A stretch of DNA of 64,000 bases from the NCBI RefSeq assembly GCF_026410255.1, contig NZ_JAPMLL010000001.1, positions 124,001 through 188,000 on the forward strand, read 5' to 3'. Below the pieces are notes generated by a model. That model did not search any database. It was not told the origin of the DNA and saw only the letters and a list, made by a program, of their open reading frames with translations. A program made the position numbers and the translations under genes. Origin of the DNA: Xanthomarina sp. F1114. Its GTDB lineage: Bacteria > Bacteroidota > Bacteroidia > Flavobacteriales > Flavobacteriaceae. Positions 45,484 through 54,610 of this stretch are shown here, piece after piece (within the stretch, counting starts at the first letter, position 1; each line of letters opens with the position of its first letter).

Positions 45484-46011
45484 ATGGGTGTTATTGATAT
45501 TATTTTATTAGGCTTTTTATTACTCGGATTAGTGCGAGGCTTTTTAAAAGGTTTTTTTGTTGAAGTTGCATCTTTAATCGCTTTAATTGCCGGGATTTAT
45601 GGCGCCATTCATTTTAGTTTTTATGCTGCTGAAATGTTGACAAATCAAGTTGACTGGGACGAAAAGACTATTAACGTCACCGCTTTTGCCATCACCTTTA
45701 TTGTTATTGTTTTAGTTATTGCTATGGCTGGAAAAGCCCTTACCAAGTTAGCAGATTTTGCTGCTTTAGGCATTGTGAATAAGGTTTTTGGAGCAATTTT
45801 TGGTCTGGTAAAAATGACATTAATTTTAAGTATTCTCCTTAATATATTCGATAAACTAAATACAACAATTCCCTTTCTAGATGAAGAACACACTAAAAAT
45901 ACAGTGCTTTACAACCCAGTAAAATCTGTAGTCCCAATAATTTTTCCGTTTATTATAAAGACTGAAGAATTAGAATTTAATGAGTCTAAAGAAGAAATCC
46001 ATGACGTCTAA
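45484..46011 (+). CDS. CvpA-family membrane protein
   Basis: 175 residues with four helices in the first 130 (IDIILLGFLLLGLVRGFLKGF is the family N-terminus with its conserved GxxRGxxKGF). CvpA was named for colicin V production and later linked to envelope and bile-salt stress. The last four bases overlap the end of the converging PepSY-flavoprotein gene. Role here unknown. Confidence 0.9.
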   Translation: MGVIDIILLGFLLLGLVRGFLKGFFVEVASLIALIAGIYGAIHFSFYAAEMLTNQVDWDEKTINVTAFAITFIVIVLVIAMAGKALTKLADFAALGIVNKVFGAIFGLVKMTLILSILLNIFDKLNTTIPFLDEEHTKNTVLYNPVKSVVPIIFPFIIKTEELEFNESKEEIHDV

Positions 46012-48200
46012 TAGCAGTCCATTTTAAGTTGTTGCCTATTCTGATAATACCCCAAAGGTTTGTTATTATAAGTAGCACAAATTTTCTCTAGAACACCTAA
46101 CACGTCTTTTTGCATAGCCAAAGAACCGCAAATCATAATAACACCGTTATTCTGTAGCACTTTTGCAATAAATTTAGCATCTTTAAATAAAGCATCTTGA
46201 ACATAGATTTTATCTGTTTCTTGAGATAATGCCACTTCCAGTTTCCTTAATTTATTATCTGAAATAAAATCTTCAATTTGTTTTTGATACAGATTAAAAG
46301 ACGCCTGAGTTCTTAAACCCAAATACAAATAAGTCTCTATTTGCTTTTTATTTTCGTGAAGCATTCCCAAAAATGGACCAATTCCAGTTCCATTAGCAAT
46401 CATAACAACTTGAGATGCTTTTTTAGGGAAATAAAACTGACTATTTTTAAAAATTCTCGCTTTAAACCTAGTTTTAGGCTCTAAATTATTTAGGTAATTT
46501 GACCCTAAACCTCTTTCAAAATGTTTCACACTTAATTGCATATTCCCGTTTACTTTTCCTATAGAGTATAGGCGCTCACGATAATCGTGATTGGGGTATA
46601 TTGCCAACAAATCGCCAGATTTAAAACAATATGTCTTTTTAGGTTTTAAGGTGATTAGAAACGTCTTGTCCGGGTTTGTTTTTACTTCGGTTCTTTTTAC
46701 AACTTTTAGTTTCTTTAAGAGTTTAGGCTTTACTACTAAATCTTGTTTAGATATTTTAAATTCTAAACTTTGAGTCTTAGCCCACAATTGTGTCCATTTT
46801 TCAAAAGCTTCAACCGATTTATCGTTAATGGTAAATGGTGCTAATTCTTCTTTAAAATAATCGTTAAGCTCAATATTAACATCAAAAGCGTACTTACAGA
46901 AATCTGGGTAAGATAGAGAACCAAAACCAACTACAGAGAATGCTAATTTTTTGTTTTGTTTGGTTGTTTTTAGCAGTTTTAAAAATTTATCAGCATTGGT
47001 TGGAGCTTCTCCTTGTCCATAAGTGGCTGTAAGAACAATGAGGTGTTTGGCTTTTTTATAAGTTGTATACTTATTTAATTCTGAAATATAAACCTTCTCT
47101 CCTGCTTGCAATAATTGTTTATATAAAACATTGGCAAACGGTATTGTGCTTCCGTTTTCTGAGCCTACCAAAATAATATACTTTGCCTGATCTTTTTTAT
47201 ATTTATTTTTAAGTTTCGCTTTCCTTCGCTTTAAAGTCATAGCAAATCCAGAGTAGATAAAAAATAGGATATTGACACTTGCAATAGCCAGGATTAAAGA
47301 CCAAATAATACTGCCTTTACCCGTATGAAGATTTAAACTTAAGTTAGAGAAAAAGCTCACTAATGGATATTTTTCTTCACTTAAAACAGTTCCTGTAAAC
47401 TGATTTACCAAAATTTCTCTGTCTTTTAATTCTATAGTGAAGTAATCTTCTACATCTTCTGAGAAAGGAAACTCAACAGCTTTAACTTGCGACAGTTTTA
47501 TGTCTTTAAAAACAGGAAACTGGAAGAAGTCCAATTTTGGAGTTTCATAAATAGCATCAAAATCAACATTATGAGATGTGGTTACTTTGGGTAAAACATT
47601 AAATTTTTCTAAGGATAAATACACTCCAGTAAGGGTGATGATAATAATAGGAATTAAAGACAAACGTCCAAGAACCACATGCCAGTATTGATTAAAATTT
47701 TCATTAACAACGGATGAAAATATCTTTTTGAAACTCCCTTGTCTTTTAACAACCAAAACTAACCCAGAAACAGCTATTAAAAACAAAATAAAGGAGCATA
47801 ATCCAACAAAAAACCGACCAGTTCCTTTTAAAAACAACGAACGATGGAAATTAGTCACCCATTGAAAAAACTTAGAAGGTTCTTTTTTATTGGCAAGAAA
47901 TTGTGCTGTTTCTGGATTAAAGTAACCATTTAAGCTTTTGCCCTCTTTAGTAATAACCGATGCAAAAACAAAGTTGTTAGCATCTACCTGAAGTTCTATA
48001 ACCTCGGGATAATTATCTTTGAAAACAGTAACTGTTTCAGCTAAACTTAAAGCATTAAGATCTGCCACATGATACGGTTGCAGCTTATCTGAAACAGGTT
48101 CGAATGCCAGAATTATTCCAGTTACAGATGCTAAGAGAATAAAAACAAAAGAAGATACAGCCAACGCAAGATGGCTATATCTCCAAATGGAAATGGTCAT
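46008..48200 (-). CDS. PepSY transmembrane - flavodoxin - FNR-type reductase fusion
   Basis: 730 residues. PepSY-associated membrane region (about 1-335) with helices near 9-33, 136-157, 182-203 and 300-322. It bears His residues such as FHRSLF, YWHVVLGRL and LNLHTGKG that could hold haem. Then comes a flavodoxin-like domain (about 338-480; VGSENGST, TATYGQGEAP). Last is an FAD/NAD(P) reductase module (about 497-730; RLYSIGK near 541, IANGTGIGPF near 597, CGSLAMQKDV). The design resembles sulfite-reductase-type flavoproteins tied to a membrane electron conduit, and would move electrons from NAD(P)H to the periplasm. Last gene of the minus-strand group next to a haem receptor. Confidence 0.9.
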   Translation of the reverse strand: MTISIWRYSHLALAVSSFVFILLASVTGIILAFEPVSDKLQPYHVADLNALSLAETVTVFKDNYPEVIELQVDANNFVFASVITKEGKSLNGYFNPETAQFLANKKEPSKFFQWVTNFHRSLFLKGTGRFFVGLCSFILFLIAVSGLVLVVKRQGSFKKIFSSVVNENFNQYWHVVLGRLSLIPIIIITLTGVYLSLEKFNVLPKVTTSHNVDFDAIYETPKLDFFQFPVFKDIKLSQVKAVEFPFSEDVEDYFTIELKDREILVNQFTGTVLSEEKYPLVSFFSNLSLNLHTGKGSIIWSLILAIASVNILFFIYSGFAMTLKRRKAKLKNKYKKDQAKYIILVGSENGSTIPFANVLYKQLLQAGEKVYISELNKYTTYKKAKHLIVLTATYGQGEAPTNADKFLKLLKTTKQNKKLAFSVVGFGSLSYPDFCKYAFDVNIELNDYFKEELAPFTINDKSVEAFEKWTQLWAKTQSLEFKISKQDLVVKPKLLKKLKVVKRTEVKTNPDKTFLITLKPKKTYCFKSGDLLAIYPNHDYRERLYSIGKVNGNMQLSVKHFERGLGSNYLNNLEPKTRFKARIFKNSQFYFPKKASQVVMIANGTGIGPFLGMLHENKKQIETYLYLGLRTQASFNLYQKQIEDFISDNKLRKLEVALSQETDKIYVQDALFKDAKFIAKVLQNNGVIMICGSLAMQKDVLGVLEKICATYNNKPLGYYQNRQQLKMDCY

Positions 48201-48226
48201 GTTTATTTGTGTTTGTTCAGTAAAAA

Positions 48227-48709
48227 CTAATTAGGCATCATTCTTATATAACGAATAAAACCTGTTCCGTCCTGTTTACTTTTTACATTTTCTGTAGTTA
48301 ATGGGAACTCCACATCTTTGGTGTAGTACTCTTGATCTTCAACGGCTGTTTCAAAACGAATGCTGTAACCAGCATCAATTTTAGAATCATCAATATCGAT
48401 TACACTAATGGTTCTAGCGCCTCCGGCAATTGTTGCTCCAGTTATTGCATCTAAATTTGTACGTTTTTTTCCGTAGAAGTTCCACCAATCAGAAATATCG
48501 TGATACCACTCGTCGTCGTCTCCTTGAACATAAAGCGTTTTTTCATATTCTCCTTGAGGATTAATCAATGAAATAATTACATAGGCAGCTTCACCTGTAT
48601 AATTAGTCATTTGAATCATGCATTTGTACTTAGTAGTTTCAGAAAAAGTACTTACAGACAAAAGACCTAATGTGGCAATAGCTATAAGTATAAATTGTTT
48701 AATTTTCAT
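48227..48709 (-). CDS. Exported DUF2271 protein with a putative flavinylation motif
   Basis: 160 residues. The signal peptide ends near residue 22 (VSTFSE). The body matches DUF2271: YKCMIQMTNYTGEAAYVIIS, WYHDISDWWNFYG and a C-terminal YTKDVEFPLTTENV. Residues 87-93 read DAITGAT, which fits the D-x-x-(S/T)-G-A-T motif where ApbE links FMN covalently to a Thr; Thr93 would be the site. It lies 26 bases upstream of the PepSY reductase gene, so the two may pass electrons. No apbE gene lies in the window. The function is inferred, not known. Confidence 0.8.
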   Translation of the reverse strand: MKIKQFILIAIATLGLLSVSTFSETTKYKCMIQMTNYTGEAAYVIISLINPQGEYEKTLYVQGDDDEWYHDISDWWNFYGKKRTNLDAITGATIAGGARTISVIDIDDSKIDAGYSIRFETAVEDQEYYTKDVEFPLTTENVKSKQDGTGFIRYIRMMPN

Positions 48710-48824
48710 TTTAATATTGAGGATTTATTAGATTCATTAAGTAATACCATGACTTCAAATTAAACCCACAAAGCTTTAAATGGCTTAACATTTATGATAG
48801 CTGCTTTGCAGGCCTAATAACCAA

Positions 48825-50297
48825 CTAACTACTCAAAAAATCAAAATTTAGTTTTTTCGCTAATAAAATTTCGTTTTCCGAAGCTAAATCGAAGGCTGTT
48901 TCTTCAAATTCTGTGAGTTCCTTCTTTTTTGCTCCTTGCTCTATAAGGTATTTTAGAATTTCTGTATCTGTGGCACTCATAGCTGCTAAATGAAGCGCTG
49001 TATTGCCTTCCTTATTTTTAGCATTAATATCTACTTTATACTGAGACACCCATTTTACGAGTTCTAAATTATTTTTAGAAACTGCTAAATGATATAAGGT
49101 ATTGCCATCTTCTTGAACTTTACTAATATCTAATCCCTGTGTTTTTAAAAGTTTTACTTTTTCTTGAAAGTCATCTGAAGGAAAAGCATCTAATAAATAG
49201 TATGCTAAATGGTTTCCGTTGGTATCAACAACCTCTACATTGGCTTTATGTTCCATTAGAAAACTAACCGATTTAGCAGAATTATTAGCAATGGCCAGAC
49301 TTAAAGCTGACTGTCCTTTATTGTTGACCCAATTAATATCTTTAGTTCCTTTTAATAAAGTTGATATTACCTCTAGGTTGTTTCTACTTGCTGCATGAAT
49401 TAAAGCTGTATTTCCATTTTTATCGGCTAAATTAATATCTGCACCTTTTTCTATAAAATAGTTTGTAATAGACACATCTTTATTTCTGGCTGCCACAATT
49501 TGCAACGGACTAATGCCTTCCTTTGTTCTAGTATCAGGGTTTAGACCTGTACTTTCTAAAAACTTATATACCTCTAATCCGTTGGTTTTTCCTCGAGTTC
49601 CATAAGCAGCAAAAACAAAAGCCTGATCGTTTCCTTTTATGTTTCTTTCTAACAGTTTATTTAATAAATCTATGTTTCCTGTTTTTGCCACATAATTAAA
49701 AACGCCATTTCCTTCGGAATCTACACTATTTATGCTGAATCCTTTTGAAGTAAAATAATCGATAAGCACAAAATCTGTATCAAAAGGAGCTGCAAGCAAT
49801 AACGCGTTAGCGCCATTTGGAGTTAGGTCTTTTTCTAGGTTGGCACCATGTGTTAAACAGAGATCGTACACTTGAGTATTTGGTTGCCCAGAGCCAGCTG
49901 CAAAGTTTAAAATGGTATTACCTTTATCGTCTGTTACATCTGTTTTAGCTCCTTTTTTTAAGAGATATTCCATGAACGGTACATTCCCCTTATAAGCTGC
50001 CCAAAATATATAGGTTCTTCCGTCGTGAGTTAGTTTATTAACATCGTTTCCAGGTTTAGATTGTATATATTTTAGGGTTTTTAAAGGAGCGTTTTGTAAA
50101 ATAGCATATACAACAGCATCAAAATTATTACTATTAGCTTCCGTAATACTATTTCCGGCTTCTATTTTTGCATCAATCGCTTTAATAGTTGGTTTGGTAT
50201 CCCAAAAATTGCGATCTAAAAACACGTTTTCTTGTGCTGTAATCTGGGTTCCAAATATAAAAATGAAACCCAAGACTAATTGTTTTAAGTAAGTCAT
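48825..50297 (-). CDS. Exported ankyrin-repeat protein
   Basis: 490 residues with a signal peptide ending near residue 21 (QITAQ). At least ten ankyrin repeats fill residues about 60-480; well-formed ones include DGRTYIFWAAYKGNVPFMEYLL, NGNTALIHAASRNNLEVIS and EGNTALHLAAMSATDTEIL. Probably periplasmic. Secreted ankyrin proteins are known as scaffolds; AnkB of Pseudomonas aeruginosa supports a periplasmic catalase. It stands four bases behind the DUF6607 gene and 115 before the DUF2271 gene on the same strand, within the haem/iron locus. Partner unknown. Confidence 0.9.
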   Translation of the reverse strand: MTYLKQLVLGFIFIFGTQITAQENVFLDRNFWDTKPTIKAIDAKIEAGNSITEANSNNFDAVVYAILQNAPLKTLKYIQSKPGNDVNKLTHDGRTYIFWAAYKGNVPFMEYLLKKGAKTDVTDDKGNTILNFAAGSGQPNTQVYDLCLTHGANLEKDLTPNGANALLLAAPFDTDFVLIDYFTSKGFSINSVDSEGNGVFNYVAKTGNIDLLNKLLERNIKGNDQAFVFAAYGTRGKTNGLEVYKFLESTGLNPDTRTKEGISPLQIVAARNKDVSITNYFIEKGADINLADKNGNTALIHAASRNNLEVISTLLKGTKDINWVNNKGQSALSLAIANNSAKSVSFLMEHKANVEVVDTNGNHLAYYLLDAFPSDDFQEKVKLLKTQGLDISKVQEDGNTLYHLAVSKNNLELVKWVSQYKVDINAKNKEGNTALHLAAMSATDTEILKYLIEQGAKKKELTEFEETAFDLASENEILLAKKLNFDFLSS

Positions 50298-50301
50298 GTT
50301 A

Positions 50302-51210
50302 TTAAGATTTTACAAAAGCGTCTATAATTGGATCGATTTCTTGAGCAGTTTTATAGTTTTCGTCGTCTAGTATATATTTAAACATTACTTTATTATCAAC
50401 CTTCTCCTTAAGGAATAAATTTGTGTTTCTTGCAAAAACCTCATCCCATTTGGCACGAACAACCGCCCATTTTTCTTTATTTTTTTTCCAATAATCTTGG
50501 CCAGCTTTACATCTTTCATCAGCAATCTTAACATAGGTATTATGACCTTTTTCTTGTGCTAGAAGCATGTCTTCTTTTCCTTCTTCACGAATTACTTTGT
50601 CGTTGTCTTGATCGTGAATCCATCCATTAGAAACAATTTCATGTCTATTGGTTCTAATTAGCACATTATAATCACTACGTGTTGTGTATTCACGTCTTGC
50701 CAAAGGTGCAGCCGTGGTATTTTCCCAATAACTTTTTCCATCTACATGTACCCAAGAGGCAGAACCTTCATAACGAGGACTATCATCTACTTGAAATACT
50801 CTTTGTGTCCATTGTCCTTTAACATCTTTTTTTGGAAGCTTAACATATTCCCATTTATTATCATGATCGTAAACATATAAGTCTGTGTTTTCAAATTCCC
50901 AATCTTGACGCCAATGTTTAACAATATGTGGACTATCTGGACGACCAACAATTAAAATATGTTGCATGACAATTTTATCTGCATCATTTTGAAGTAATTC
51001 TACCCATTCTAATGCTTTATCGTGTTTCGTTTTAGAAGGAATGTAAGTTGAGTCTCCAGAATACTCGAACGTTTCAGTAAAATTAAAGCCCACTTCGTAG
51101 CAACCACACATGTCTTTTATGGCTTTTTGATCTTGTTTCTTTTTGTTTTGGGCTTGAGTTTGAAAAATAACTACGACTAATAAAAAAGTGAGGAGTGATA
51201 ATCGTTTCAT
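50302..51210 (-). CDS. DUF6607-family exported protein
   Basis: 302 residues, signal peptide to about residue 20 (QTQAQ). CGCYEVGFNFTETFEYSGD and KHWRQDWEFEN are the family's recognisable parts; a WxxR/HW cluster and several Tyr/Trp/His could contact a metal or porphyrin, but this is a guess. Members are typically found beside HmuY and TonB receptors in Bacteroidota. It heads the minus-strand group, divergent from the receptor gene, and shares the 104-base control region with it. Confidence 0.82.
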   Translation of the reverse strand: MKRLSLLTFLLVVVIFQTQAQNKKKQDQKAIKDMCGCYEVGFNFTETFEYSGDSTYIPSKTKHDKALEWVELLQNDADKIVMQHILIVGRPDSPHIVKHWRQDWEFENTDLYVYDHDNKWEYVKLPKKDVKGQWTQRVFQVDDSPRYEGSASWVHVDGKSYWENTTAAPLARREYTTRSDYNVLIRTNRHEIVSNGWIHDQDNDKVIREEGKEDMLLAQEKGHNTYVKIADERCKAGQDYWKKNKEKWAVVRAKWDEVFARNTNLFLKEKVDNKVMFKYILDDENYKTAQEIDPIIDAFVKS

Positions 51211-51259
51211 TACTAGGGTTTTCTTTTTAAGTGAATTATTTATTTAAAATTTACCTATT

Positions 51260-51296
51260 CTTATTTAGACTGATTTAAAATAAGATTTTATATTTG
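51260..51296 (+). promoter_or_regulatory. Fur-box-like dyad and -7 box before the haem receptor gene
   Basis: CTTATTT (51260-51266) and AAATAAG (51278-51284) are perfect 7-bp inverted arms around AGACTGATTTA. TATATTTG (51289-51296) is the -7 box, so the dyad covers the -33 region and would block the receptor promoter. AT-rich TTATTTAGA-like halves are what I would expect of a flavobacterial Fur site, but I cannot confirm the consensus. The DUF6607 gene begins on the other side. Confidence 0.5.
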
Positions 51297-51314
51297 CTGC
51301 AAATTTAATCAAGA

Positions 51315-53450
51315 ATGAGTCTAAATAAAAATAAAATTCTAATTTATTTTTCACTTTTTTTAAGTCCCATAGTTTTTTCACAAGAGACAGTTGTTGATTC
51401 TACCAAGACCGAAGAACTTAATGAAGTTGTAATTACGGGACAATACAATCCACAATCCATCAAGAAATCTGTTCATAATGTGATTGTTATAAATAAAGAA
51501 CAAATTGAAAATCAAGCCGGAAATAATCTCGCAGATTTGTTGAATTTCAATTTAAATCTAACCATTATTCCAAGTTCTCAAACTGGAAAATCTAGTATCT
51601 CATTTTTTGGTTTAGATGCGCAATACTTCAATATTTTAATAGACAATATTCCTTTAGTTAGCGATAATGGCCTTGGAAACAACATAGATTTAACCCAAGT
51701 CAACCTAGACGACATAGAACGCATAGAAATAGTTGAAGGTGCTATGGGAGTTGAATATGGAGCGAATGCCGTTTCTGGTGTTATTAATATAATTACCAAA
51801 AAATCCATTGATTCTAGTTGGCAAATTCAAGGAGGCATCCAGGAAGAAACTGTTGGAGACGAATACGCATGGTTTGATGCTGGTAGACATATTCAACTTA
51901 TAAACCTGTCTCATAATTTTAATGAAAAATGGTATGGCCGCTTAGGTTTTAATCGCAATCATTTTGCAGGCTATTTAGATAATAAGCAAGGAAAAGATTA
52001 TTATATAAATGATGGTTTAAGAGGGTACGAATGGCTACCAAAAACACAATTTAATACCAATGCTTTAATTAATTATCAGTCGGAGAAGTTTAAATTAAAT
52101 TATCGTTTTGATTATTTTCATGAAGTTCTTAACTATTATGATGCTACAGTAAGACCTAACATAGATATTGTTTCGCAAACTTCGAATCCTTCTGCTACCG
52201 ACAAAATATTTACAACCAACAGGTTTGTAAATAACATAAATATCTCTGGACATTTAAATTCTGGAGCCAACTACAAGGCATCTTTTTCATATCAACAACA
52301 ACAGCGCGATTTAAATAAGTTCAATTACTATATTTTAAGTCACGAGAAAACCAACGAAACAGATGAAACCTACCAATCTACTAAAATATTTTTCTCTAAT
52401 GGTACGATAAATAATCTTATTAAAAACGACAAATTCAACTTTGAGTTAGGCTATGAAACGAGATTTATAGATGGGTTCGACACACAAGCAACTGGAGATT
52501 ATAGCCAATTAGCTAAAAGCCATTCTATTTATAATTTATCCACATATGGTTCTGCAGAATATAGATTTAATCAAAAGCTATCTCTAAGACCAGGATTACG
52601 TTACGAATACAATTCTAAATTTCAATCTAAAGTTTTAGGTTCTTTAAGTGCCAGGTATTTAATGAATCATGGATTTGAACTTCGGGCAAATGTGGGTAGT
52701 TCTTATAGAACTCCAAGTTTTGAAGAACTCTATTACTACTTTGTAGACTCTAATCACGATGTACGAGGAAATGAAAACTTAAATCCAGAAAATGGATATA
52801 CCGCTTTTATTAACTTAAAAAAACGTAGTTGGTTTGATGATATATCTCTTCAAAATGAATTAAAATTTAGTTATATCTCTTTAAAAGATAAAATTGATCT
52901 CGCCATTGTAAACACCAGCCCGTTGCAATATCGGTACATAAATATAGATAGCTACAGGCTTTGGGGACTTACTTTAAACAACTCTATAAAATCTAATAAC
53001 TGGAACTTTAATTTAGGTGCCACTTTGCAAGGGGTTTCAAGAGGATTAGAAAATGAAGTGAATGCTAATGATGATTTTTTATATGCATTTCAAATAAATT
53101 CTAGTGCCACTTACCATCTAAAAAAATGGGATACTTTTTTAACCATGCTTTATAAATATAATGGCCCACAAGAAGATTACGTCGCTTCAGGAACAGATGC
53201 CAATGGAAATTCCACCTTTAGCACAGAAACCTTAGATGCTTACAGCTGGTTGGATGCTTCTGTTAAAAAGTCTTTTTTCAAAGACGCTTTTCAAGTCACT
53301 CTTGGAGCTAGAAACTTATTAAACATAACCTCTGTAGATATTAGAAATTCTAATGCTAGCACAGGATCTCATAACGCCAGTAGCGACAATCTTACTTTGG
53401 GCTACGGACGTTCATTTTACTTAAAACTATTATATACATTAAATATTTAA
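51315..53450 (+). CDS. TonB-dependent receptor, haem-receptor-like
   Basis: 711 residues without an N-terminal carboxypeptidase-like domain. The signal peptide ends near 22 (VFSQ), followed by LNEVVITG as a TonB box, the plug (about 40-165) and the barrel ending LKLLYTLNI. In the region of the haem-receptor FRAP and NPNL boxes it has YRTP (464-467), then His481, then NENLNPE (486-492). His between the two boxes is required for haem use in HmuR/HemR. Its partner hmuY-like gene begins 12 bases later. It probably takes up haem or a haem-like ligand. Confidence 0.88.
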   Translation: MSLNKNKILIYFSLFLSPIVFSQETVVDSTKTEELNEVVITGQYNPQSIKKSVHNVIVINKEQIENQAGNNLADLLNFNLNLTIIPSSQTGKSSISFFGLDAQYFNILIDNIPLVSDNGLGNNIDLTQVNLDDIERIEIVEGAMGVEYGANAVSGVINIITKKSIDSSWQIQGGIQEETVGDEYAWFDAGRHIQLINLSHNFNEKWYGRLGFNRNHFAGYLDNKQGKDYYINDGLRGYEWLPKTQFNTNALINYQSEKFKLNYRFDYFHEVLNYYDATVRPNIDIVSQTSNPSATDKIFTTNRFVNNINISGHLNSGANYKASFSYQQQQRDLNKFNYYILSHEKTNETDETYQSTKIFFSNGTINNLIKNDKFNFELGYETRFIDGFDTQATGDYSQLAKSHSIYNLSTYGSAEYRFNQKLSLRPGLRYEYNSKFQSKVLGSLSARYLMNHGFELRANVGSSYRTPSFEELYYYFVDSNHDVRGNENLNPENGYTAFINLKKRSWFDDISLQNELKFSYISLKDKIDLAIVNTSPLQYRYINIDSYRLWGLTLNNSIKSNNWNFNLGATLQGVSRGLENEVNANDDFLYAFQINSSATYHLKKWDTFLTMLYKYNGPQEDYVASGTDANGNSTFSTETLDAYSWLDASVKKSFFKDAFQVTLGARNLLNITSVDIRNSNASTGSHNASSDNLTLGYGRSFYLKLLYTLNI

Positions 53451-53461
53451 AATCAATTATT

Positions 53462-54553
53462 ATGACAAACAAATTTTCCTCACTCCTTTGTGGAGTTTTA
53501 CTAATTAGCAGCTTTGGTTGCAGTAGTGATGACAACAACGAACCATCTGGACCTATAGATGTAATTATTGAAGGTGCACAAGTAACGCCAGAAGTTGGTG
53601 GACCAAACCAACAAAACCAAGTTTATATCGATTTAAGCACAAATACCTCAACAACTGTGCAGCGTGATACTTGGGATTTAGGTTTCTATTCTGGATCAGA
53701 ATTTAGAGTAGCCATAAATGGATCTATTTATATGGCTACGGCAAAATTAACAGAAAACAACATAGATGCCGTAAATTCAAGCAGTCCTGAAGTTCAAGAT
53801 TTACAGACTAGAGTTGCTGTTGGAACCTTTGCTGCAGAAACTGCCAATTTTATAGATGCGCCTAGTGGAAACATAAATGGAACAGCTATAGAAGCCATTT
53901 CTAATACAGATTCTCAAAACAACGTATATCTATTAAATCTAGGTTATAAAGTTGGTACAACCACGCCAGCCAATGGTGCTGTTGCTGTAAACGGTGACCC
54001 AAGAGGTTGGATGAAAATACGTGTATTAAAAAACGGAAACGATTATGTACTACAATATGCCGATTTAGATACCAGCACACATCAAGAAGTAACTATTACT
54101 AAGAGTAGTGATTTCAATTTCAACTTTTTTAGTTTTAATACAGAAAGTGAAGTATCTGTGGAGCCAGTAAAGTCTCAATGGGATTTAAACTTTACCGTTT
54201 TTACTAATGAAATTGAAGGATATGGAGCTTATGGTTATAGCGATTTTGTAACACATAACACCAAAGGAGGTGCAGCTGTATATAGTTTAAATACTGAAGA
54301 TACTTCTTATACCTACGAAAACTTCACGCTAGCCGATGTTGATAATTCTAACTTTGTGTTTAACGATCAAAGAACCATTGGAGGTACTTGGAGAAATGGT
54401 GGGGGACCATCTAGTTTACCATCTTTAAAAGACAATATGTTTTATGTATTACAAGACACAGACGGTAATTTGTACAAACTTCAATTTTTAGCTTTAACTA
54501 ATGCTGAAGGCGTGCGTGGTTATCCGGAATTTGTTTATAGCTTATTGGAATAA
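53462..54553 (+). CDS. HmuY-family lipoprotein (haem-binding)
   Basis: 363 residues. The lipobox SSFGC (Cys20) is followed by a SSDDNNEP linker and the HmuY domain (about 33-360). The start of the domain bears WDLGFYSGSEFRVAIN and a second WDLNFTVFTN typical of the fold. HmuY of Porphyromonas gingivalis (about 216 residues) is a surface haemophore that hands haem to HmuR. This one is longer, as often in Flavobacteria. Which residues hold haem is not clear; the two His used in Porphyromonas cannot be placed with confidence. Co-transcribed with the receptor. Confidence 0.88.
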   Translation: MTNKFSSLLCGVLLISSFGCSSDDNNEPSGPIDVIIEGAQVTPEVGGPNQQNQVYIDLSTNTSTTVQRDTWDLGFYSGSEFRVAINGSIYMATAKLTENNIDAVNSSSPEVQDLQTRVAVGTFAAETANFIDAPSGNINGTAIEAISNTDSQNNVYLLNLGYKVGTTTPANGAVAVNGDPRGWMKIRVLKNGNDYVLQYADLDTSTHQEVTITKSSDFNFNFFSFNTESEVSVEPVKSQWDLNFTVFTNEIEGYGAYGYSDFVTHNTKGGAAVYSLNTEDTSYTYENFTLADVDNSNFVFNDQRTIGGTWRNGGGPSSLPSLKDNMFYVLQDTDGNLYKLQFLALTNAEGVRGYPEFVYSLLE

Positions 54554-54587
54554 AAAAAGAAATTTCACTATTATACAAAACAAAAAG

Positions 54588-54610
54588 GCCACTTTAAAAG
54601 TGGCTTTTTT
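54588..54610 (+). terminator. Terminator after the hmuY-like gene
   Basis: GCCACTT (54588-54594), a 3-base loop, AAGTGGC (54598-54604) and a T run (54605-54610). The A run at 54582-54586 also serves the converging carbonic anhydrase gene. Confidence 0.85.

Follow-up and report, generated by a model that had tools for sequence, protein, structure and literature searches.

Why genes for haem capture should share a locus with genes for a transmembrane electron path is the question raised by a 64,000-nt stretch of the Xanthomarina sp. F1114 genome (genome label G000; NZ_JAPMLL010000001.1, 124,001-188,000), here called the window, whose positions serve as coordinates throughout. Six genes were arranged around a 104-base divergent region, four on the minus strand and two on the plus strand (Table 1). 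The minus-strand group encodes a DUF6607 protein, an ankyrin-repeat protein, a DUF2271 protein and a PepSY_TM-flavodoxin-FNR reductase. The plus-strand group encodes a TonB-dependent receptor and an HmuY-family lipoprotein. An original prediction, made from the DNA sequence, had named this gene set and its control region, and all were found at the same positions with open reading frames (ORFs) and Pfam. The locus is read here as an iron-acquisition locus in which reductive iron supply is joined to haem capture, with a probability of roughly 0.6. It would combine the known Flavobacteriales haem-capture set of RhuH, TonB receptor and HmuY lipoprotein with a known transmembrane electron path in its Bacteroidota form.

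The DUF6607 protein (PF20311, E 7e-93) was linked to RhuH through structure and sequence, because a literature search for DUF6607 gave no paper. A profile of 82 DUF6607 sequences matched PDB entry 8XJC, a 'haemophore', with an E value of 8e-121, and the next of the 115 matches reached only 0.02. The window protein alone matched 8XJC with E 1e-87. Its AlphaFold2 model had a mean predicted local distance difference test (pLDDT) score of 94 and gave Foldseek TM-scores of 0.85 and 0.93 to 8XJC. The runners-up were far weaker (E 0.002 and above) and were mostly nitrobindins, likewise haem barrels. Entry 8XJC is RhuH of Riemerella anatipestifer, which binds haem with a dissociation constant of 3.4e-11 M, uses His96 as iron ligand and contacts the propionates through Arg143, Tyr144, Arg170, Arg183 and Gln198 in R. 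anatipestifer numbering; deletion of rhuH impaired growth on haemoglobin and haemin (PMC11967795). In the alignment to 8XJC, the six contacts corresponded to H99, R146, Y147, R173, R186 and Q201 of the window protein. The first five were kept in 116/116 DUF6607 sequences, window included, and Q201 in 109/116. The window protein is a member of the RhuH haemophore family, and haem binding is predicted from the aligned residues and the model. DUF6607 had been proposed, together with the ankyrin protein, as a scaffold or ligand partner. An unidentified scaffold is ruled out by the RhuH match in sequence, fold and haem contacts, and a Pfam family listed as unknown is now given the identity of a haemophore family with a solved structure.

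In close relatives, the haemophore gene was commonly followed by the same three genes. Surveys covered 196 genomes of the order and a phylum draw of 296 genomes. DUF2271 was present in 20/196 and DUF6607 in 32/196 genomes of the order; in the phylum draw, DUF2271 was over the cut-off in 22 genomes (35 at E 0.001) and DUF6607 was found in 25. Loci were fetched around 27 DUF2271 places and, for the 41 other genomes with DUF6607, around this gene in 35. The ankyrin, DUF2271 and reductase genes stood together at 23/27 DUF2271 places, in L076 with one gene between, and the ankyrin gene was the regular upstream partner of DUF2271. The four exceptions were L097, which starts at a contig end, L089, which has neither partner, and the ApbE-DUF2271 fusions L095 and L096. 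DUF6607 in this wider survey was usually beside a TonB receptor gene and often beside an HmuY-family gene. The loci closest to the window were the best 80 of 578 matches of the DUF6607 alignment to named genomes, some of them ending at contig ends. Near RhuH, these held DUF2271 at 63 loci, the reductase at 62, the ankyrin gene at 61 and ApbE at none. The order RhuH-ankyrin-DUF2271-reductase on one strand was found at 60/80, with all gaps below 400 bases in 54. Loci with this gene order include ones from Cellulophaga (L123), Winogradskyella (L115) and Bizionia (L116). Wide gaps occurred in L149, L151, L153 and L157 (2.4 kb between RhuH and ankyrin) and in L182 (4 kb before the reductase), and the ankyrin frame was split in L146. 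The receptor gene was placed variably: it diverged from RhuH, the arrangement of the window, lay upstream in the same direction (L139, L144, L159, L183) or lay downstream (L180, L187, L192). In survey locus L090, receptor genes lay between RhuH and the ankyrin gene. Since the 80 loci were picked for likeness to the window and are not independent, the varied gene orders are the stronger argument. At L174 and L181, RhuH was followed by DUF2271 and reductase genes with no labelled ankyrin gene, and some lineages may do without the ankyrin protein.

DUF2271 also tracked RhuH across genomes. Among the 196 genomes of the order, both were present in 18, DUF2271 only in 2, RhuH only in 14 and neither in 162, that is, DUF2271 was present in 18/32 RhuH-positive and 2/164 RhuH-negative genomes (Fisher p 6e-15, not tree-corrected). 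The tie held within the family (p 1.5e-4), in the order outside the family (p 6e-6) and within one genus (p 0.03), likewise not tree-corrected. Genome size, used as a control, was known for 30 family members and 49 further genomes of the 196. In the 79 genomes with a known size of at least 2.5 Mb, 17 had both, 2 DUF2271 only, 10 RhuH only and 50 neither (p 1e-8). In genomes of the order with an HmuY-family protein (E 0.001) and no RhuH, DUF2271 was present in 0/54. A neighbourhood survey had been suggested in the original prediction, with lack of co-occurrence as the outcome that would count against it; the genes do co-occur, at the loci as well as in the genomes.

Spacing and control sites were consistent with this arrangement. 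The minus-strand gaps were 4 bases (DUF6607-ankyrin), 115 (ankyrin-DUF2271) and 26 (DUF2271-reductase), and the plus-strand gap was 11 bases, suggesting two transcription units. The Fur box of R. anatipestifer (PMC5609570) was used as yardstick, and a site was counted at 14/19 identities or more within 120 bases upstream of a gene, as a measure of similarity, not of binding. Such a site lay upstream of RhuH in 102/116 loci, compared with 10% in shuffles. Upstream of ankyrin genes within 2.5 kb of RhuH, it was found in 0/57. The remaining 27 ankyrin genes had a site in 15 cases (4% in shuffles), all among the 22 without RhuH in the stretch and in 0/5 where RhuH was further off. Sites were found upstream of DUF2271 in 0/89 and upstream of HmuY in 1/39. 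Fur-like sites before RhuH and none before the RhuH-adjacent ankyrin gene are as expected of one operon, and the pattern fits Fur control of RhuH and the genes after it. The window held three 15/19 sites in 64 kb, with 2.3 expected, and two of them lay within the control region or at its border. The locus is probably Fur-controlled, and the genes for RhuH and the electron path are probably parts of a single operon. A sigma-70 promoter scan was uninformative (42 found, 38.5 expected). One stretch of the control region resembles the -7 element of Bacteroidota (Table 1).

The receptor (PF07715 and PF00593) had TonB-hemin (TIGR01785) as its best NCBIfam model, as its predicted haem type would suggest. 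It scored 97.5 bits and did not reach the cut-off of 316.85, so the haem-type label comes from context and not from a curated threshold. Two very different receptor types were present at the best 80 of 578 RhuH loci. The second type occurred at 39 loci, and after three near-duplicates were left out its partner gene belonged to the HmuY family in 36/36 scanned. The window lipoprotein matched PF14064 with E 2.8e-26. In the HmuY family, haem is bound by a pair of His or Met residues; across 29 aligned sequences neither residue was invariant at any position, and haem binding has been reported for a divergent member (PMC9331221). The haem or iron character predicted for the locus is borne out by the RhuH-family protein, the HmuY-family lipoprotein and the Fur-box-like sites.

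The electron path was traced through domains and conserved residues. The reductase comprises a membrane part, a flavodoxin domain and a reductase domain for NAD(P)H and flavin adenine dinucleotide (FAD). Matches to PF03929 (E 3e-35), PF00258 (1e-12) and PF00175 (2e-10) were all in one 730-aa chain, in agreement with the original prediction. The reductase alignment comprised 82 of 91 matching ORFs, nine shorter or weaker ones being left out. Four histidines of the membrane part (10, 119, 174 and 292) were invariant in 82/82 sequences, and the FNR motifs were kept too. By analogy with the PepSY structure described in PMC11334425, these histidines would serve as bis-His haem ligands. The DUF2271 protein (PF10029, E 9e-42) has the motif DAITGAT, which fits the flavinylation-type pattern [ST]GA[ST] and is a candidate site for the attachment of flavin mononucleotide (FMN). 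This had been predicted, and it agrees with the demonstration of a DUF2271 protein as ApbE substrate (PMC8238504) and with the presence of an ApbE gene in the genome. Of 89 aligned DUF2271 sequences, window included, 68 had the pattern and all 89 the last S/T, the acceptor. Pooled alignments count a few genomes twice, and L089 and L155 are one contig. The reductase and the DUF2271 protein probably pass electrons across the inner membrane.

A single DUF2271 gene and a single ApbE gene were found in the genome, the latter on another contig (C55) outside the cluster. A local ApbE was set aside, with 0 matches at the closest 80 loci and the sole ApbE gene of the genome lying elsewhere. ApbE was present in 20/20 DUF2271-positive genomes of the order, compared with 139/196 overall, and adjoined the ankyrin-DUF2271-reductase run at 15/24 survey loci (L097 counted). 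No NQR genes were recognised by eye in 19 kb around ApbE, a family search not being made. In L095 and L096 (genomes G329 and G365), ApbE and DUF2271 formed a single protein of about 505 aa away from an ankyrin-reductase run; this is based on Pfam for L096, and on clustering and a 516-aa frame for L095. Such fusions are mentioned in PMC8238504. In Zobellia uliginosa, a second DUF2271 copy with the motif VGET was located beside RhuH without a reductase or ankyrin gene (L089, 9085-9576), and the SGAT-bearing copy was located elsewhere (L084), together with reductase and ankyrin genes.

Table 1. Features of the haem and electron-path locus in the window, with strand and basis of assignment
Feature	Position	Strand	Basis
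PepSY_TM-flavodoxin-FNR reductase, 730 aa	46008..48200	-	Pfam
DUF2271 protein, 160 aa, signal-like N-terminal stretch (by eye), motif DAITGAT	48227..48709	-	Pfam, motif
Ankyrin-repeat protein, 490 aa, signal-like N-terminus (by eye)	48825..50297	-	Pfam (ankyrin repeats, E 6e-51)
RhuH-family haemophore (DUF6607), 302 aa, predicted haem ligand His99	50302..51210	-	8XJC match, Foldseek, ligand residues
Divergent control region, 104 bases	51211..51314	.	ORF coordinates
Fur-box-like site, 15/19 to R. anatipestifer consensus	51263..51281	.	Consensus from PMC5609570
TATATTTG, -7-element-like	51289..51296	+	Resemblance to the -7 consensus
Second Fur-box-like site, 15/19, overlapping the receptor start codon	51308..51326	.	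Same Fur consensus (PMC5609570)
TonB-dependent receptor, 711 aa, resembling RhuR/HmuR in position and in best model (below cut-off)	51315..53450	+	Pfam, NCBIfam
HmuY-family lipoprotein, 363 aa, RhuA/HfpY position	53462..54553	+	PF14064; weak PDB matches to HmuY-family structures
Terminator-like hairpin 3' of the HmuY gene	54582..54610	+	Hairpin scan (5 such sites in region, 4.0 expected)

From these parts, the following working of the locus is proposed. The HmuY lipoprotein and RhuH would capture haem, and the receptor would carry it into the periplasm. In the reductase, FAD and FMN of the cytosolic part would accept electrons from NAD(P)H, and two bis-His haems of the membrane part would take them outward to FMN on DUF2271, attached there by the single ApbE of the genome. 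DUF2271 may then reduce the ferric iron of an imported ligand, either RhuH-held haem or iron set free, easing release and uptake of Fe(II). Of the two proteins once proposed as scaffolds, the ankyrin protein would still probably have this role, in the periplasm. For this organism, the route of the electrons and their substrate are inferred, as is the role of the ankyrin protein. In relatives, haem binding by RhuH (PMC11967795), haem use via HfpR/HfpY (PMC9331221) and flavinylation of DUF2271 (PMC8238504) have been reported. The pairing of haem capture and electron path, kept in many relatives, suggests reductive iron release outside the cytoplasm, from haem or another carrier.

Several observations weigh against this reading. 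The ApbE gene was missing from all of the best 80 of 578 RhuH loci, some of which end at contig ends. In 21/89 DUF2271 sequences the motif departed from [ST]GA[ST], with GE mid-motif in 18 and GS in 3 and V before it in 6, so that flavinylation cannot be assumed for these. The score of the window receptor lay under the TIGR01785 haem cut-off. DUF2271 was near only 2/35 RhuH loci of the wider survey, and outside the order the tie was looser, with RhuH in 3/7 DUF2271 genomes and DUF2271 in 3/10 RhuH genomes. DUF2271 was present without RhuH in 2/20 genomes in the order and 4/7 outside it (G056, G087, G268, G329, G365 and G420). Secretions and vesicles of R. anatipestifer contained RhuH, which was undetected in whole-cell extracts (PMC11967795), a poor fit to a periplasmic partner. 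Of six large receptors scanned near the run in other genomes, five had the siderophore (myxochelin) receptor MxcH as best model, below cut-off, and one (L098) passed the siderophore-receptor cut-off. Among the 18 genomes in the order that carry DUF2271 together with RhuH, five had a PF01126 (haem oxygenase) protein and one a PF02514 (HmuS-type) protein, and three (G074, G116 and G150) had no full-length FeoB match, so that these three would need another ferrous-iron route. In the window genome itself, the lack of PF01126 and PF02514 matches and a FeoB match in a frame of 699 aa speak for the reading; a FecCD permease is encoded there too. A recurrent lipoprotein-like protein of about 440-460 aa (c13) was observed near the run and a large TonB receptor (L084, 11517-12899; L099, 6232-7542; L085, 16105-17442). 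Its assignment as DUF4374-like was not borne out, as the two scanned had no Pfam family.

A narrower version of the proposal is a dedicated envelope haem reductase, in which NAD(P)H electrons would reach RhuH-held haem via the covalent flavin of DUF2271 and iron or haem would be released without haem oxygenase or HmuS. It is rated as doubtful, well below the broad reading, because of the siderophore-type receptors near the run, DUF2271 without RhuH and secreted RhuH. If it were true, a further way to win iron from haem would be added, and a model for the missing electron supply in Bacteroidota periplasmic haem processing would be at hand.

The best surviving alternative to reductive iron supply joined to haem capture is a shared regulon. 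The run would then encode a general reductase, acting on ferric iron or ferric siderophores, that lies beside haem genes as both are Fur-repressed, without acting on haem. We regard this as possible, if on the unlikely side. It agrees with the six receptors scanned, with the six genomes holding DUF2271 without RhuH, with the ankyrin gene having its own Fur-box-like site in 15/22 stretches without RhuH, and with the ferric and siderophore iron proposed for PepSY systems (PMC8238504). Against it, DUF2271 was tied to RhuH in the order, yet accompanied HmuY without RhuH in 0/54 genomes, and the run followed RhuH at 60 of the closest 80 loci in several gene orders. Haem redox handling, in which imported haem would be kept ferrous for an inner-membrane haem importer or periplasmic cytochrome assembly, is very unlikely. 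It would account for the RhuH linkage, and this genome had no match to the haem oxygenase family PF01126, in a search that did not extend to HutZ/HugZ, IsdG-like proteins, ChuW or EfeB; the Fur-box-like sites and the EDTA fitness defect of a Caulobacter PepSY-DUF2271 locus (PMC11870441) point to iron supply instead. A chance neighbourhood of two unrelated iron operons in one lineage would suit the 2/35 loci of the wider survey and the non-independence of the closest loci, but is highly improbable given the run at 60 of the best 80 of 578 loci in more than one gene order and the uncorrected co-occurrence within genus, family and the rest of the order.

The joining of reductive iron supply to haem capture was compared with known systems. 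In R. anatipestifer, the promoter region between rhuH and the divergent rhuR-rhuA genes spans 122 bases and contains a Fur box (PMC11967795). The window resembles RhuH-RhuR-RhuA in the sequence, fold and haem ligand of RhuH, in its divergence from a receptor and a second haem protein, and in Fur-box-like sites in the shared promoter region. It is unlike that system in the ankyrin, DUF2271 and reductase genes that follow rhuH. The main text of PMC11967795 has no PepSY, flavin, ankyrin or reductase, and a literature search on the RhuH haemophore gave this paper alone and nothing that connected RhuH with DUF2271, PepSY or ankyrin proteins. In Flavobacterium psychrophilum, haem is used via HfpR/HfpY, and a haem operon near "transmembrane electron transfer" genes was remarked on (PMC9331221). 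Unlike the window, hfpR and hfpY are separated there by a DoxX gene. RhuH loci L128, L132, L137, L152, L161, L167, L179 and L188 resembled the published hfp operon in having a DoxX gene close to the receptor gene; the ankyrin-DUF2271-reductase run was found at 0/8 of them within the examined stretches. With the Hmu system of Porphyromonas gingivalis the window shares an HmuY-family lipoprotein and a TonB receptor. A Hmu operon of that type was set aside, as this genome has no match to PF02514 (HmuS-type, CobN-like). A figure legend on Porphyromonas hmu clusters lists a pepSY gene as well as a calycin-like one (PMC12106395).

Clusters of the PepSY-like kind that include DUF2271 are widespread, with TonB in 231 PepSY clusters, and a role in iron assimilation was proposed for them (Meheust et al. 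2021, PMC8238504). The window is like these flavinylated systems in having a PepSY protein with an NAD-binding domain beside a DUF2271 protein with [S/T]GA[S/T], and unlike them in its regular ankyrin partner, the lack of a local ApbE and the haemophore neighbour. Their common though not universal partner DUF4198 had no Pfam match among the six window proteins. Ankyrin does not appear in the main text of PMC8238504, its supplements aside, and a literature search gave no paper pairing ankyrin with DUF2271, or with PepSY in the context of TonB-dependent iron uptake or of Flavobacteria. In Bacteroidota, the ankyrin-repeat protein is marked here as one of the regular components of iron systems with DUF2271 and PepSY. 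A PepSY gene of Bizionia argentinensis was down in an iron-regulator mutant (PMC9478572).

The divergent rhuH layout, DUF2271 flavinylation and PepSY/DUF2271 iron clusters are already published (PMC11967795, PMC8238504). No description of the set as one system was known when the original prediction was made; this holds for the link of RhuH to DUF2271, PepSY and ankyrin in the literature search, but PepSY-DUF2271-TonB clusters have been published, as has a haem operon neighbouring electron-transfer genes. The conserved RhuH-ankyrin-DUF2271-reductase run in relatives and the tracking of RhuH by DUF2271 in the order are new. The electron supply of periplasmic haem-iron release has been called unresolved (PMC13227078), and its donor becomes testable. 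A proven haemophore family is tied to such an electron path in dozens of Flavobacteriaceae genomes, where the connection can be tested by single-gene deletions.

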